Part shown: positions 3,331 to 32,051 of the stretch, one piece after another | Layout: every line of letters starts with the position of its first letter | Numbering within the stretch: the stretch's first letter is position 1 | Source of the DNA: a virus | Strand: one strand, 5' to 3' | Virus record (IMG/VR): IMGVR_UViG_3300036791_000055 | Span: 1-35,331 of that record | DNA length: 35,331 bases | Translations under genes and position numbers: made by a program | Notes under the pieces: model-generated | Seen by the model: only the letters and a program-made list of their open reading frames with translations | Databases searched by the model: none | Told to the model about the DNA's origin: nothing

Positions 3331-4145
3331 TAGAAATTGCCTCCATCAAGTATATCTCCAGTAATGGCTAACACTCTAGTCCAAGCAGCGTCCATTCGAC
3401 CATATGCTAAATGATTTTGTGGGGCTTCACTTCCCCAACTATCTCCTGGCGGCCCCTGTGGGCCAGGTGGTCCTGCAGGTCCTGGTGGTCCTTGTGAGCC
3501 TCCACCACTAACCTTAGAGTCAACATAGGCTTTAGTTGATGCGTGTAATGGAGAAGATGGAGCGCGCGCTAGAGTTACATCAGAGTTGGCTACTTGAATG
3601 TTACCAAATGCACGAGGTTCTGCATCAGGCATAGTTGTAGTTGCAGCACTACCAATATTGCCAAGAGTTATGTTAGAGGCACCAACAGTAATAGCATCAT
3701 CTGGTGTTACTCTAATCTGAGTATTATTGAAGCGTAGGACAACGTCTTTAGGATCGGCGACCGTCCCCTTATAGGAGCATCCGGCTATACCGATGCTGTC
3801 CGAAAGATCGAATTGACGAGGGTCATCTGGAAATGCTAGATTGCCGTCTAACCAATTCTCTATTGAGCGTTGCTGAACAGCTAGCATTATTCCATCACCA
3901 GGCTGTAGAGGCATGGTGAATGAATTCTTGCCGCCATTAGAAGCAGGCCACAGTATTGGCACTTCAACTATTTGTGGTCCGTCTAACGGCGTATCATCGG
4001 GTAGCCTCTTGGGGATAGATACCTTCACAACCGCTCTATTTCGAGCAGCATCATATGACACAATAGTAGCAGGCAAATTTGTATTGACTTGAGCAAGCCT
4101 TTGCTCAATAGATTGATTGATTGCGTCAACTAATTCTTCATACAT
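3330..4145 (-). CDS. Gp138-type membrane-piercing spike with collagen-like segment
   Basis: 271 residues. Residues 1-150 fit the Gp138 N-terminal OB-fold family: LPATIVSYDAARNRAVVKVSI, IVEVPILWP, MPLQPGDGIMLAVQQRSIENWLDG. These proteins form the central spike tip under the hub. Residues 219-236 are Gly-X-Y collagen-like triplets (GPPGPAGPPGPQGPPG). A fibre motif (HASTKAYVDSK) precedes them, and the tail ITGDILDGGNF resembles the fibre's C-terminus. The spike therefore seems extended with fibre-type modules. Start and stop overlap its neighbours (TAATG), between hub and fibre, the expected place. Confidence 0.85.
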   Translation of the reverse strand: MYEELVDAINQSIEQRLAQVNTNLPATIVSYDAARNRAVVKVSIPKRLPDDTPLDGPQIVEVPILWPASNGGKNSFTMPLQPGDGIMLAVQQRSIENWLDGNLAFPDDPRQFDLSDSIGIAGCSYKGTVADPKDVVLRFNNTQIRVTPDDAITVGASNITLGNIGSAATTTMPDAEPRAFGNIQVANSDVTLARAPSSPLHASTKAYVDSKVSGGGSQGPPGPAGPPGPQGPPGDSWGSEAPQNHLAYGRMDAAWTRVLAITGDILDGGNF

Positions 4146-5137
4146 TAGTTTACTGCCATAAGGTCAGATGCTTCCAAGTCATCTTCTGGCGCGCCGCTGC
4201 GTGATGGAATACCACCCTTTGTTTTGGAGTCACCAGCAATAGGAGCGGCTGGATCGACAACCTTCATTTCTGATATCCAATCTCCCTCATGACTATCACC
4301 AGTGTGCTTAATCTCATGAACTCTGAACACTCCATCTACAAAACGACTAGTCAATTTGATTCGATCACCAGGATTAATCATAGGCATCAACAGTGACTTT
4401 ACTTGCCAGCCTTCATATTCCTTTTTGGCTTTTGCTTTCTTAGCCTTTGTTGATGTTACTCCTGTCAATACTGATCCACCACCAGCAGAGTGTCTTGCTT
4501 TGCGTATTCGTTCTGGACTATAGATTAATCCTGAGTCGAGAGCAAGTTCAATACCTTGTCGAGTTGTTACCATTCCTTGCTGTATGACTTGTAGATTACC
4601 ATTCTGAACAGACCATTCTAATCCTGTGCCTTGTGTTACTTTATCAAGCAGGCCAGAAGCAGGTCCGTGATAAGACAAGCCATTCTTCCATACTCTTTCT
4701 GGAGCATTACTCGGCAAAGTCAGCGGCAACCCCATCTGTTTGGATACATCCTTGAGCACGCTTGTTGACTTAATGTTGGTCGAATAGCCAACTGATATAG
4801 TTGTATCACGCATCTCTTGTGTGCCATCGCCAAGTTCAAATTCAGTAATGATATCTGCCTTATCAAATTTGGACCAAGCATACGTTACATTTCCTTTGAA
4901 CAGCATTAATGGTCCAGCATCTTCTGCATATCCTGCATACAAAACAATTCTGGTATCAGGCTTCTCAAGTTGGGCTCTTGTATCCTTCTTCAAGTTCCAT
5001 ACTTTGATTGTGCTTGTGTTTGGGTTCTTTTTGATTGTCTTTTGTATGTCAAACGAAATGTGCAAGTCTGTAATCTCAAGACCCTTGTCTTGACCCTTCG
5101 TTCCTACCAACAAACGATATACTCTATCAAACAACAC
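4145..5137 (-). CDS. Baseplate hub protein (Mu gp44 / T4 gp27-like)
   Basis: 330 residues. The N-terminus (GLEITDLHISFDIQKTIKKNPNTSTIKVWNL) is the conserved opening of the hub family in Pam3- and Bcep-like phages. The later stretch TRQGIELALDSGLIYSPERI and INPGDRIKLTSRFVDGVFRVHEIKHTGDSHEGDWISEM match the C-terminal hub domain. The trimeric hub joins tail tube to spike. The start is a GTG at 5137 with GGGAG about 10 nt upstream; it overlaps the plug gene by 11 bp. Confidence 0.85.
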   Translation of the reverse strand: MLFDRVYRLLVGTKGQDKGLEITDLHISFDIQKTIKKNPNTSTIKVWNLKKDTRAQLEKPDTRIVLYAGYAEDAGPLMLFKGNVTYAWSKFDKADIITEFELGDGTQEMRDTTISVGYSTNIKSTSVLKDVSKQMGLPLTLPSNAPERVWKNGLSYHGPASGLLDKVTQGTGLEWSVQNGNLQVIQQGMVTTRQGIELALDSGLIYSPERIRKARHSAGGGSVLTGVTSTKAKKAKAKKEYEGWQVKSLLMPMINPGDRIKLTSRFVDGVFRVHEIKHTGDSHEGDWISEMKVVDPAAPIAGDSKTKGGIPSRSGAPEDDLEASDLMAVN

Positions 5138-25109: not shown

Positions 25110-25570
25110 ATCTGATTCCATTCTTTTATTGTCAATGAACGTTGATGGCCCCACATCATTACGCATAGGGAAGATCCATCGTCTCTAGCCTAGACCGGAT
25201 CGTGCGGCCGGTCTAGTGACTTTAGCGACATGATTCGATCTGGGAATAATATGCCCATAGATACGTCAGTCAATAAGATCGTATATACCATGATTGGATG
25301 GGCCGCGCGCCAGGAGTATGAGATCAATCGTCGGCAGCCAGCCACCCAATAGGGCCGATCAGGGACTATAAGCCAGCTTATTATAGACAACCATATTGTA
25401 TCTAGGCGTGCACCGGTGGAAGCCATGATAACGTCTATCAGACTGATAGACCGAGGCAATCAAAACGGCCACCTAGATTACCAAATGTTAATCGTTTTCA
25501 GCCCATAACCTCATGAAATCATTGACAAGAACGTAACGGGAACATTGACAGAACAAACGCGAACGAAAAA
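25110..25570. other. Non-coding stretch left of the large RNA
   Basis: No convincing gene. A perfect 9-bp hairpin, CTAGACCGG (25190-25198) and CCGGTCTAG (25208-25216), would lie in the leader of the minus-strand gene. One octamer repeat is at 25309-25316 and a weak CGTATATAC variant at about 25279. Two ATTGACA elements, 23 nt apart (ttgaca at 25522-25527 and 25545-25550, each followed by AGAAC or GAAC), lie just before the large RNA and may be activator or -35 sites, but no TATAAT-like box follows. Confidence 0.5.
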
Positions 25571-26275
25571 TGGGGCACTAGGGTAGGCCTGCCCGGTAGC
25601 CGGGCACACCTCCTGCACATCCCTAGGCCCACTACGGGGCAGGCCGTCGGGCATCCCTAGACCGGCATGGCCGTCCTAGTTGGCTCAACCAGGGAACCGT
25701 CTAAAAATCGAGACTGGCCCCAAAAATGAGTTGTAGACCTAGGGGCACCGTTCGGCTAGACTACCCTTCGTCGGCGGGAAGACACCGCCGAGCCTATCGG
25801 TCTTTGAATAGTGAGAATCAGGTCATCTCGGGAGCTCAGGAGAGCGCGCACACTTAGCGCACTTCTAGAGCGCCCCTAGGGCCATCTGAACGCCATCCCC
25901 AGGGATAGGGCACCAGGTTAGGCTCTAGAGCCTCAGCGCCCATAGGAAACGCGCCTAGCAACGTTTCCGCCAGGGTCGCACGGGAAGCAGTAAGGGGAGT
26001 CAGCGACCAAAGCTGGCTCGCACGGGAATAGTAGGTGAAAGCTGAATGGATTTACCCGTTAGCTCAGACCGCGCCACTTGGGTCGCGCTCAGGCCGTTTT
26101 GACCAGGTCTTTCAGCACTCTTTGAAACGGTATATTACGAAAGCATAGACGAAAAGCCCAGAGCGGTAGTTTCAGCTTGTGGAGGTGTAATGACTTGTTT
26201 GATCCACCAGCCGGAACCGAATACCCTGGGAACTGATTAATCTGTGTGATTAGTATATATAGTGAATCAGGTCTA
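25571..26275 (+). ncRNA. Candidate large structured non-coding RNA (boundaries approximate)
   Basis: About 700 nt, much richer in G+C than the genes around it, without a credible reading frame, and full of helices. Pairs found by eye: TGGGGC/GCCCCA (25571/25717), TGCCCGG/CCGGGCA (25590/25600), GTCT/AGAC (25699/25711), AGACC/GGTCT (25735/25799) enclosing GGCT/AGCC and CGGCGG/CCGCCG, AGGCTC/GAGCCT (25920-25933), GGAAACG/CGTTTCC (25945/25962), AGTCAGC/GCTGGCT (25998/26012), CCGTTT/AAACGG (26094/26125), GTGGA/TCCAC (26179/26203), CTGATT/AATCAG (26233/26265). TCGCACGGGAA occurs twice (25976, 26018). Size, GC content and a phage setting recall the GOLLD and ROOL classes, but membership cannot be claimed by eye. 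The strand is inferred from the right-block direction. Confidence 0.6.
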
Positions 26276-26299
26276 ATCCTCTCAAGGCCAAATACCTTG

Positions 26300-26309
26300 C
26301 GTATATACG
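26300..26309. promoter_or_regulatory. CGTATATACG palindrome
   Basis: A perfect decamer palindrome followed by a partial second copy (ACATATACGT), between the large RNA and the first right-block gene. It is one of seven copies in the window and may be an operator for the rightward transcripts. Confidence 0.5.
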
Positions 26310-26372
26310 TTTACATATACGTCAGCAAAATGGTGAACTGAGAGGATATGTCCGTTGTTCCTTTCTAGGGGC

Positions 26373-26496
26373 AGCGGGCCAGGAGCGATCTTGGCCCGCT
26401 GTTTAATGCGGCCCACCACTAGCGATGTCGCTAGGGTGGCTGGTGGCAAGCCCAGAAAATCCAAACGCAGAGCCAACACCTAGAAAGGGTGCAATT
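26373..26496 (+). promoter_or_regulatory. Class 1 structured leader, copy A
   Basis: Hairpin AGCGGGCCA/TGGCCCGCT (26373-26400), then TAATGCGGCC, a helix CCACC-A-CTAGCG/CGCTAG-GGTGG, the small hairpin CTGG-TGGCAAGC-CCAG, then AAACGCAGAG and CTAGAAAGG before the ATG at 26497. The order and the CAAG loop match copies B, C, E and G. This copy has the extra helix between the prefix and the CAAG hairpin. Confidence 0.6.
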
Positions 26497-26946
26497 ATGC
26501 CTGCTACCAAGACTGTTGAAGTGTTCAATCCTTACTTCGTGTATGCGGTTCGCTGCACTGTTACGGGTTGGGTGTATGTGTCGGTGCGTAAGGTCAGTGA
26601 GAAGGCTTTCATGAGCCTTCTGAAGACTGGTGCGCGTGATCCTAACTTTGATCAGCCGATCCATCGTTCATTCCGTGAGCACGGTGCTGAGGCTCACACG
26701 ATTAAGCGGCTGGGCACTTACGAGGCCAAAGAGGATGCTCAGGAGCATCAGACGCGGCTGATCGAACAGAACGCCAAGCGGGGCATTGGTCTCAATGCTT
26801 CGCGTCCCAGCGCGTTTGCTTCTGAGGATTTCCAGTGGCTGTCTTACGCGGCAACTGCCGACGATAAGGCACCCGCCAAGAAGGCCAAGAAGGCCACCAA
26901 GAAGGCAGCCGCCAAGAAGGTTGCTGATGTGGCGGCTGCTGCCTGA
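26497..26946 (+). CDS. GIY-YIG-like protein with histone H1-like tail
   Basis: 149 residues. The start YFVYAVRCTVTGWVYVSVRKV (13-33) matches the first strands of the GIY-YIG fold, and PIHRSFREHGAEAHTIKRLGTYEAKEDAQEHQTRLIEQ (54-91) its helix with H-G and the late Glu (E83). The GIY and YIG tripeptides are degenerate (VYA, YVS), so nuclease activity is doubtful. Residues 123-149 are Lys/Ala repeats like histone H1 or bacterial DNA-coating tails. The ATG at 26497 follows the class 1 leader (AGAAAGGGTGCAATT). Codons are more GC-rich than in the left block. It probably binds DNA. Confidence 0.68.
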   Translation: MPATKTVEVFNPYFVYAVRCTVTGWVYVSVRKVSEKAFMSLLKTGARDPNFDQPIHRSFREHGAEAHTIKRLGTYEAKEDAQEHQTRLIEQNAKRGIGLNASRPSAFASEDFQWLSYAATADDKAPAKKAKKATKKAAAKKVADVAAAA

Positions 26947-27557: not shown

Positions 27558-27793
27558 TGGTCAAGTATAAGCCACAGCCGGTCAAGTTGATCGGCAAGCC
27601 ACCTGCTAAATGCCAAGGTTGTGAGACCAGGATCGTCGATGTCTTCAACGACATCAAGACTTGGAGCGGCTGGCGTTTTACTTGTGATGATTGCGTGCCC
27701 AAATACAGCATCGCCAAGACCGGCCACTACGGCACAGGCCTAGGCCAGCGTTGGGTGAAGCAAGGAAAGGATTGGATTAAACAGCAAGGCTAA
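27557..27793 (+). CDS. Small zinc-binding protein
   Basis: 78 residues. Two CxxC pairs, CQGC (about residues 19-22) and CDDC (about 43-46), make a treble-clef or ribbon-like zinc site; the flanks are basic (MVKYKPQPVKLIGKPP; GQRWVKQGKDWIKQQG). The ATG overlaps the previous stop; a GTG one codon earlier is less likely. It may bind nucleic acid. Function unknown. Confidence 0.68.
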   Translation: MVKYKPQPVKLIGKPPAKCQGCETRIVDVFNDIKTWSGWRFTCDDCVPKYSIAKTGHYGTGLGQRWVKQGKDWIKQQG

Positions 27794-27866
27794 CGGAATG
27801 GGCGCCAGGAGCGATCTTGGCAGCCTATTCCGCCAGCGGTTGCTGGGCTTAGAAAGGAATGGAACA
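27794..27866 (+). promoter_or_regulatory. Class 2 structured leader, copy D
   Basis: Stem 1: CGGAAT (27794-27799) with ATTCCG (27827-27832), continuing inward as GGC and GCCA against TGGC and GCC. Stem 2: CCAGC-GGTT-GCTGG (27833-27846). Then AGAAAGGAATGGAACAATG. Stem 2 differs in sequence from copies F, I and J but keeps its place and pairing. Confidence 0.65.
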
Positions 27867-28091: not shown

Positions 28092-28309
28092 TGTTTGTAT
28101 TCGTCAACAAAGATGTTGCTACTGAATACTATATTCACCATTTCGCAACCGAAGCATCAGCGATAGGCATACCGCCTGGTAAATGGCCGAATAAGTTGCT
28201 CACTGATTTGGGCAACAGCCTGCCATTTATACTACAGTGGGCCGGTCCCAACAGCGCCAAGTATCTACAAGATTGTGGTTGTATCGTCTTGACTGTATAC
28301 AATGACTAG
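28091..28309 (+). CDS. Unknown small protein
   Basis: 72 residues starting at the ATG that overlaps the preceding stop (TGATG); an ATG at 28082 in the same frame is possible. It reads MFVFVNKDVATEYYIHHFAT and ends CGCIVLTVYND. Mixed alpha/beta with one CGC motif; no family recognised. Coupled to the membrane protein before it. Confidence 0.6.
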   Translation: MFVFVNKDVATEYYIHHFATEASAIGIPPGKWPNKLLTDLGNSLPFILQWAGPNSAKYLQDCGCIVLTVYND

Positions 28310-28317
28310 CAGAGTGG

Positions 28318-28405
28318 GCCGGTAGCAATACCGGCTTAATGCGCCGATGCCTGGTCACAAGTCCAGGAAGCAAAAGCATAGTGGTTACTAGAAAGGAATG
28401 GAACA
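28318..28405 (+). promoter_or_regulatory. Class 1 structured leader, copy E
   Basis: The first hairpin here is not made of the octamer: GCCGGTA-GCAA-TACCGGC (28318-28335), with a GCAA tetraloop. TAATGCGCCG follows at 28337, then CCTGG-TCACAAGT-CCAGG and AGCAAAAGCATAG, then AGAAAGGAATGGAACAATG. It shows that hairpin sequence can be exchanged while the layout stays. Confidence 0.62.
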
Positions 28406-28865: not shown

Positions 28866-28945
28866 CGGAATGGGCGCCAGGAGAATACTTCTGGTCGCCT
28901 ATTCCGCCAACATTGTATAGTGTTGGAAACAGAAAGGATGGAACA
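28866..28945 (+). promoter_or_regulatory. Class 2 structured leader, copy F
   Basis: Stem 1: CGGAAT (28866-28871) and ATTCCG (28901-28906) around GGGCGCCAGGAG and CTGGTCGCC. Stem 2: CCAACA-TTGTATAG-TGTTGG (28907-28926). Then AGAAAGGATGGAACAATG, one base shorter than the other copies. The TCTTGACGG before stem 1 is shared with copies I and J. Confidence 0.66.
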
Positions 28946-29299
28946 ATGGAATCAACTCTTGTGTATCTCATCAATACAAAAGAGCGCAAGGTGGAAGCAC
29001 GTCGCATCCTATCAACACGAGACGTTCGCACTTTGATTGGTGGTGGTCTTGAGCTAGCATACTTTGACCATGTAACCAAAAATGCTCTCTATGTTGATGG
29101 TGACGGTATGCGCAACTCACCAACTACAGTCTTTGCTTTCGCGCTGAGACTTGACCAGTTCCTTTACGGAAATGGAGTTTGGGTGGGTCAAGAAATAGAG
29201 GATGAATCTGGCGATGGTTTCTACTATGCGCCGCCGGCAATCTCTCTGGAAGACCTGTGGCAACTTGTCCGTTTCCCCGATAGCGTCGGCCGTTTCTAG
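28946..29299 (+). CDS. DUF3846-like protein (putative)
   Basis: 117 residues from the ATG at 28946. VYLINTKERKVEARRILSTRDVRTLIGGGLELAYFDHVTKNALYVDGDGMRN, then FALRLDQFLYGNGVWVGQEI, and SLEDLWQLVRF follow the order of DUF3846 proteins (I-G-G, then a D-D/E-G turn, then GxxxVxG), which are common in phages and plasmids of unknown role. The assignment is by eye. It is a single-gene cassette, ended by the palindrome GATCGTTTAAACGATC right after its stop. Confidence 0.55.
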   Translation: MESTLVYLINTKERKVEARRILSTRDVRTLIGGGLELAYFDHVTKNALYVDGDGMRNSPTTVFAFALRLDQFLYGNGVWVGQEIEDESGDGFYYAPPAISLEDLWQLVRFPDSVGRF

Positions 29300-29482
29300 G
29301 ATCGTTTAAACGATCTAGAGCCGGTCTAGAGCCGGTCTAGAGCCGGTCTAGAAACACCTCTAGGACGGTCTAGGGCGCGTTTAACCCGGCTCTAGCTAGG
29401 GCGGTAGCCTACGATCCTAGACGGCCTAGGCGATCGTCCTAGGCCGTTCCGGTAACGCGAAAGAGAGGCAAGGAACGCACAG
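29300..29482. repeat. Non-coding block: 16-bp palindrome, 11-bp tandem repeats, hairpin
   Basis: GATCGTTTAAACGATC (29300-29315) is a perfect palindrome. GAGCCGGTCTA is repeated three times without a mismatch (29318-29328, 29329-29339, 29340-29350), a period close to one helical turn. ACGGCCTAGG (29421-29430) and CCTAGGCCGT (29438-29447) form a perfect 10-bp hairpin with loop CGATCGT. CTAG is unusually frequent here. No gene is seen. It may be an iteron cluster, an origin element or another structured RNA. Confidence 0.6.
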
Positions 29483-29578
29483 ATGAAATGGACTATCATA
29501 TCTGTGGCCAGTATAGCTGCGGCATATGCTATCGTCTTTTGGTTTATGTTCTGGATTGCCTACTTGATAATACACTAG
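29483..29578 (+). CDS. 31-residue single-span membrane peptide
   Basis: The frame MKWTIISVASIAAAYAIVFW continues with FMFWIAYLIIH and a TAG. It is one hydrophobic segment after a single Lys. AAGGA stands 8 nt before the ATG, a good Shine-Dalgarno. The peptide lies between the tandem-repeat block and a class 1 leader. Small phage membrane peptides include holin-like, superinfection and toxin-type proteins; which one cannot be told. Confidence 0.55.
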   Translation: MKWTIISVASIAAAYAIVFWFMFWIAYLIIH

Positions 29579-29582
29579 CATA

Positions 29583-29710
29583 CTCCTGGCGTGCGAGCGC
29601 CAGGAGAATAATGCGGCCTAGAACTGGCGAGAGTTTTGCGCTAGTATCTAGTCGGTTCCAAGCCCGAACAAACGCAGAGGATAAGTGCTTGAACCTAGAA
29701 AGGAAACAAA
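29583..29710 (+). promoter_or_regulatory. Class 1 structured leader, copy G
   Basis: Hairpin CTCCTGGCG/CGCCAGGAG (29583-29606, 6-nt loop), TAATGCGGCC at 29609, helices CTAGA/TCTAG and ACTGGCG/CGCTAGT, small hairpin CGG-TTCCAAGC-CCG, AAACGCAGAG, then CTAGAAAGGAAACAAA before the ATG at 29711. Like copy A, it carries an extra long helix between the prefix and the CAAG hairpin. Confidence 0.62.
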
Positions 29711-30725: not shown

Positions 30726-30912
30726 GTATGATCAAGAATGCTCAGCTATACTTGGTCAAACTGAGGCCAGTCTAATATTGCTTCTTGTTATCCAAGGATA
30801 CAAAGGTAATGGCTTTAGCGTTACAGCAACTAACTGGGATCAAATATCTTATTTGCCAGAATTACTTAGGGATGCTGCTGATCAAATTGAATGTGACATA
30901 AATCAATCTTGA
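30706..30912 (+). CDS. Unknown small protein
   Basis: 68 residues from the ATG at 30706, which has GGAGG 6 nt upstream; an in-frame ATG at 30691 lacks one. It reads PGKYDQECSAILGQTEASLILLLVIQ and ends LLRDAADQIECDINQS. The LxxLLRxAAD(Q)IE ending recalls small phage proteins often found next to early genes. Its stop codon is supplied by the conserved TCTTGACGG of leader I. Confidence 0.62.
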   Translation: MPAGPGKYDQECSAILGQTEASLILLLVIQGYKGNGFSVTATNWDQISYLPELLRDAADQIECDINQS

Positions 30913-31080
30913 CGGAATGGGCGCCAGGAGAAACATTCTTCTGGCTGCCTATTCCGCCAACATTGTATAGTGTTGGCGTATACGATCGTATATACGACGC
31001 TATTCCCTAACGGGAATGACAACGTATATACGCCTATCTATACGATCGCCTATGAATGTGCTCTAGAAAGGAATGGAACA
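30913..31080 (+). promoter_or_regulatory. Class 2 structured leader, copy I, with palindromes
   Basis: Stem 1 CGGAAT/ATTCCG (30913 and 30951) and stem 2 CCAACA/TGTTGG (30957-30976) are as in copy F. Inserted after them: CGTATATACG at 30987-30996, hairpin ATTCCC-TAAC-GGGAAT (31002-31017), CGTATATACG again at 31023-31032, and TATACGATCGCCTATGAATG (31039), nearly identical to 19600-19619. It ends with AGAAAGGAATGGAACAATG. This is the most complex leader and probably carries a promoter with operators. Confidence 0.65.
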
Positions 31081-31960: not shown

Positions 31961-32051
31961 CGGAATGGGCGCCAGGAGAAACAATCCTTCTGGCCGCCTA
32001 TTCCGCCAATACTGTAACAAGTATTGGACAACTAGAAAGGAAATGGAACAA
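31961..32051 (+). promoter_or_regulatory. Class 2 structured leader, copy J
   Basis: Stem 1 CGGAAT/ATTCCG (31961 and 32000). Stem 2 CCAATACT-GTAACA-AGTATTGG (32006-32027), 8 bp, with both arms changed against copies F and I, a clear compensatory difference. Then CTAGAAAGGAAATGGAACAA before the ATG at 32052. Confidence 0.67.

Follow-up and report, generated by a model that had tools for sequence, protein, structure and literature searches.

Between two divergent gene blocks of an uncultured phage lies a GC-rich stretch, positions 25571-26275, that a sequence-only reading had taken for a structured RNA of about 700 nt. Is there such an RNA, does it belong to a known family, and how could it work? 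The window, which is the whole stretch of DNA analysed, is a 35,331-base virus record (IMG/VR IMGVR_UViG_3300036791_000055). It encodes a contractile-tailed phage, with tail sheath, baseplate hub, tape measure, portal, head maturation protease and terminase, and two of its proteins resemble gp33 and gp34 of phage Pam3; no host assignment was obtained from terminase matches. To the left of the RNA region, head, tail and replication genes run mostly on the - strand, and a VapE/D5-like helicase-primase gene lies on this side. To the right, small early-type genes are encoded on the + strand, and the cumulative GC skew turns at the RNA region between the two blocks. The first early gene (26497-26946, + strand, 149 aa) matched no family and has a 48% identical relative in a second phage, L002. 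In L002, two additional ORFs of 255 and 169 aa (within 3564-4830), both absent from the window, separate the left-hand gene block from the RNA.

Extent and conserved structure

The stretch had been described as free of credible genes, and no ORF inside 25571-26275 reaches 60 aa. Its base composition, said to be unlike that of its neighbours, stands out on the left (GC 0.56 against 0.47 just left and 0.44 for the whole window), but the contrast with the right-hand neighbour (0.52) is modest. The many CTAG turns were confirmed: 10 were seen against 4.6±2.1 expected under a first-order Markov model, an approximately twofold enrichment, and the elements extracted from relatives carry 10-22. Both copies of the reported repeat TCGCACGGGAA are real (at 25976 and 26018), but the relatives have not kept the repeat, which therefore does not characterise the family. 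The + strand folds better than shuffled sequence (MFE -272.7 against -251±6.9; z -3.2), and its z value was negative in 10/10 homologues (-2.3 to -6.7). The - strand of 25571-26275 also folds better than its shuffles (z -2.9).

The element is present at the same place in eleven distinct phage genomes, namely the window, L002, L063, L061, L048, L049, L059, L054, L050, L067 and L070. The first early protein, used as query, returned one relative, L002, whose noncoding region is 80% identical to the window over 25475-25586 and 68% identical over 25813-26488. Further members came from searches with aligned neighbour proteins and from the pattern CCRTTGTTCCTTTCTAGG. An exact pattern search in IMG/VR gave 15 contigs, 14 of which carry the element, L072 being the non-carrier; a looser 15-base pattern yielded zero additional members in IMG/VR. 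A first 15-base core pattern, GAATGGATTTACCCG, was discarded, as L033 (the L002 contig) was the only real one among its 42 IMG/VR matches. No match to the region was obtained by blastn against 50,697 phage records, and a protein search of bacterial genomes found nothing; six pattern matches in bacterial genomes had neither twister nor Shine-Dalgarno (SD) context and were taken as chance. In L050, a match to the 5' part of the RNA (1212-1355) lies on the strand opposite to the rest, which may reflect an inversion or an assembly error.

A real element lies inside 25571-26275, but this span is too short. The whole element runs from about 25566 to 26488 and consists of an ~840-nt RNA followed by a twister ribozyme directly before the SD of the first early gene. 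Its best conserved part (26255-26488, including the twister) falls mostly outside the span first proposed. The multi-helix, CTAG-rich RNA core (25566-26350, + strand) is supported by covarying pairs, alignment shuffles and a held-out genome, L048.

RNAalifold predicted 177 pairs from a six-genome alignment, 78 of them with compensatory double changes. Ahead of the invariant segment described below, 142 predicted pairs make up 23 helices, and 89.5% of cells are paired. Changes on both sides were found in 70 of these 142 pairs, a count as high as this occurring in 0 of 500 shuffles, and slid controls gave 11-24. Compared with column-shuffled alignments of four, five and six genomes, z was -11.0, -14.5 and -17.6 on the + strand and -10.4, -13.5 and -10.7 on the - strand.

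Because the structure was derived from the same alignment as the pair counts, we ran two out-of-sample tests. When the four-genome structure was placed on held-out L048, both bases were new in 15 pairs, and 14 of these were standard pairs; slid controls ranged from 0/7 to 6/8. On L049 (11/17) and L067 (9/17) the result was weaker and not far from some of the slid controls, which the poorer alignment would lead one to expect. A six-phage covariance model, R1, based on a three-hairpin domain (25820-25972, + strand), matched held-out L067 (E 1.7e-7), L070 (8.5e-7) and L059 (1e-4) at the expected place. It had no match in nine unrelated loci and failed to find L054 and L050. Near the 3' end of the core (26276-26347, + strand), a covarying stem (26276-26283 with 26340-26347, 100% paired) surrounds an 11-bp hairpin (26296-26306 with 26315-26325, 89% paired), with five double-change pairs in each. 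For domain D, RNAalifold returned no structure from 11 diverse sequences because this alignment was too gappy, and the claims on the large RNA therefore rest on the six-sequence alignment. Homologues with conserved pairing and many compensatory changes were found, and together with the folding beyond shuffles they support the interpretation as a large structured RNA. We conclude that the case for a conserved structured RNA is about as strong as sequence data can make it.

Upstream of the RNA, a conserved block (25475-25565, + strand) carries GAAC repeats at 11/11/10-bp steps (AGAACGTAACGGGAAC...AGAACAAACGCGAACG); it shows 80% identity to L002 over 112 bp and was aligned in five phages. This block is probably promoter or operator DNA. 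A search of its + strand for a sigma-70-type promoter gave no match, and no promoter for the large RNA was identified.

The phased GAAC repeats would also suit an element that works as DNA, either a replication origin or regulatory DNA with palindromes that serve as protein sites or single-stranded DNA hairpins. The turn of the cumulative GC skew at the region, the helicase-primase gene to its left and the good folding of the reverse strand point the same way. Nevertheless, we consider such an element very improbable: compensatory changes extend across multibranch helices, the + strand folds better over the six genomes, the twister with its covarying pseudoknot is strand-specific and accompanied by an SD clamp (both described below), and the skew is also explained by divergent transcription. 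Among shared pairs, GU (23 cells) exceeds AC (15 cells), which weakly favours the + strand. Taken together, the twister, the SD clamp and the better folding support the + strand as the RNA strand.

The junction with the first early gene

The core of the large RNA is followed by the segment UCCRUUGUUCCUUUCUAGG (26351-26369, + strand), which is identical in 11 phages except for one purine. The final ten bases supply the 5' strand of a helix, P0, in which invariant CCUUUCUAGG is complementary to CCUAGAAAGG in the first early gene's SD region (CCTAGAAAGG, 26479-26488, + strand; complementary to 26360-26369). P0 is 97.3% paired over 11 phages and was present in the MFE fold of 5/5 modules tested (z -3.7 to -6.3); the SDs of L002, L063 and L059 deviate from the usual sequence at one position. 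Since eight of its ten pairs never vary, the support for P0 is conservation and geometry, not covariation. We regard this putative SD clamp as a structure supported by conservation.

A hairpin (26372-26401, + strand, inverted repeat I8) stands before the predicted cleavage site and would form the 3' end of a released RNA. In nine relatives a hairpin with another sequence occupies the equivalent position. L059 has no such hairpin, and there P0 directly adjoins the twister core and takes the place of P1.

Positions 26400-26478 (+ strand) gave a full-length match to the type-P1 twister model of Rfam (RF03160; 43.1 bits, E 7.6e-8 in the 1.4-kb region), which is below the curated gathering score of 67.2 bits. 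Independent Rfam scans placed a twister-P1 at this junction in L048, L050, L054 and L070 as well as in the window, and the syntenic copies score 35.9-44.5 bits, likewise under the gathering score; the copy of L002 was not found by Rfam scan at E≤0.1. In L002, L063 and L061, GACCC replaces GAGGG and the change is compensated in T1. The three pairs of the T1 pseudoknot are formed in 11/11 phages, and each of them is changed on both sides. Helix P2 is 100% and helix P4 82% paired over the 11 phages, and the whole module contains 23 doubly changed cells, compared with 6.2 in shuffles. With type-P1 twisters the segment thus shares the UAAUGC..GC core, P2, P4, the AAGCC loop and a covarying T1. In contrast to them, the anti-SD:SD helix P0 appears to stand in for P1, and an extra hairpin separates P0 from the core; several members have a short classical P1 or lack it. 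The assignment of 26400-26478 as a twister is well supported by structure, while the match is sub-threshold by score. The predicted cut near 26404/26405 was taken from known twister chemistry at the conserved U-A step, and we infer that the twister would cleave itself there.

Relation to known large RNAs

The sequence-only reading had left open whether the RNA is a member of GOLLD or ROOL or represents a new class. Scanning 25150-26520 against Rfam 15 by cmscan with E up to 10, we found no GOLLD, ROOL, OLE or HEARO; the sole results were twister-P1 and a chance miRNA match. Rfam scans of the relatives gave none of the four either. With no model match, membership in these families is not supported, and the new class is the option that remains.

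GOLLD is a structured noncoding RNA of phages, often >800 nt long and of unknown function (PMC12286853). The RNA described here shares its size class and its nature as a structured noncoding phage RNA, but differs from GOLLD in that a twister and SD clamp follow the RNA, that it stands at the head of early genes and that the window has no tRNA island. With ROOL it has in common that it is a large ornate phage RNA of many helices; its setting and its twister-bounded 3' end are different, and no Rfam match was found. The similar size, phage setting and ornate structure would also agree with a divergent GOLLD, ROOL, OLE or HEARO beyond the reach of the Rfam models. We find this hardly credible, as no model matched the region up to E=10 or any of the relatives, and ARAGORN detected no tRNA gene in the window, a record that may be incomplete. 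A tRNA island nearby is usual for GOLLD and ROOL, though not a strict rule. Homo-oligomeric assembly is a further trait of GOLLD, ROOL and OLE. To our knowledge, none of the four RNAs has been described as ending in a twister. In our reading, the RNA of this uncultured phage represents a family of large phage RNAs that is new and matches no catalogued one.

Bacteria and phages have few known RNAs that are as large and complex, and GOLLD and ROOL are still without a function. A family with a defined position at the head of the early transcript, with boxA-like sites, an SD gate and a 3' end probably made by a ribozyme, would open its role to direct tests.

Possible working and the early transcript

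TCTTTGA forms of boxA are known from rRNA leaders of phyla other than that of the gamma-proteobacteria. In the large RNA, TCTTTGA or close variants recur at two places that match among the relatives. Site 1 (TCTTTGAAT, 25801-25809, + strand) has an equal or near-equal sequence at the matching place, and site 2 (TCTTTGAAACG, 26119-26129, + strand) has a matching or variant site in 11/11 phages. The motif is one core base off GYTCTTTAANA, the boxA consensus of gamma-proteobacteria (PMC5725501). We infer that Nus factors may bind at these sites. As in boxA antitermination of rrn leaders and lambda nut, a boxA-like TCTTTGA lies in a long untranslated and structured transcript; here, however, two sites are located deep inside a new RNA, and no boxB or N-like protein was identified. 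Three features missed in the sequence-only reading, namely twister, SD clamp and boxA-like sites, are the most telling as to how the RNA might work.

We think it fairly probable that the stretch acts as an early leader: a large RNA of a new family that antitermination probably protects and that a built-in twister removes, this twister gating the first SD as well, before the RNA serves as an independent RNA or RNP. The ~840-nt RNA would be the 5' part of the early transcript, with transcription starting near 25565. The two boxA-like sites would probably recruit NusB/S10, and polymerase could then, as on rRNA operons, escape Rho while it transcribes almost 1 kb that is not translated. Pairing of CCUUUCUAGG with the SD CCUAGAAAGG would close a helix around the hairpin and the type-P1 twister. 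The twister cut would release the large RNA with its 3' hairpin and leave the early mRNA with a fresh 5' end, its SD presumably free to open. The released RNA may act as a separate RNA or RNP, and additional twisters would cleave the early transcript at gene boundaries further along.

The location upstream of the first early gene, the boxA-like sites and the SD clamp are also consistent with a leader that acts in cis only, that is, a long 5' UTR for antitermination and early-gene timing which the twister merely trims, resembling lambda nut or HK022 put but larger. This is possible, if rather unlikely. Known cis antitermination RNAs are far smaller, a conserved architecture of ~840 nt and 23 helices would seem to exceed the needs of a leader, and a ribozyme and 3' hairpin at the end of the RNA fit a released product.

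If the large RNA is released, as in the reading that we favour, it could also act in trans, although this extension seems unlikely to us. CCUUUCUAGG resembles the anti-SD tail of 16S rRNA and might pair with the CTAGAAAGG SDs of several early genes, setting their translation or decay. A self-cut ornate RNA would then be a master regulator of the early programme.

Further twisters were matched on the + strand of the window's early region. The second (type P1, 26982-27038; RF03160, 36.0 bits, E 8e-5) and the third (type P1, 27317-27371; RF03160, 39.0 bits, E 1.1e-5) each precede the next SD. The fourth is of type P5 and scores above the gathering score (28308-28366; RF02684, 54.9 bits, E 6.3e-9), and the fifth (type P1, 29605-29685; RF03160, 49.6 bits, E 1e-8) again stands before an SD. 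The early blocks of L070, L059, L054, L048 and L063 also gave Rfam matches to twister P1/P5 and hammerhead-III-like ribozymes, and the further twister and hammerhead-like matches lie mostly just before CTAGAAAGG SDs.

In prophages, hammerheads flank genes and cut polycistronic RNA in vitro, and the production of single-gene mRNAs has been proposed for these arrays (PMC3088659). Twisters and hammerheads are enriched near genes of Mu-like phages (PMC10085705). The phages studied here have in common with the prophage arrays that several self-cleaving ribozymes lie at gene boundaries of one phage transcript, and L070 and L059 likewise carry a hammerhead-like match. In contrast to those arrays, twisters P1 and P5 predominate among the ribozymes, and the first of them marks the boundary of a large structured RNA. 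Such processing would show several ribozyme classes as routine signals in the early transcripts of one phage lineage.

Ribozyme arrays at early-gene boundaries were observed in L070 (1868-4124), L054 (3842-7092) and L059 (3857-5445). In the window, a second noncoding stretch (29299-29485), even more CTAG-dense, lies upstream of the twister at 29605; blastn detected no homologue of it in ten relatives. Recurrent intergenic hairpins around GCGCCAGGAG...CTGGCGC, which match across phages, are found between early genes of the window (27793-27830, 28868-28910, 30912-30955 and 31961-32005) and of L002 (6455-6490 and 6975-7010).
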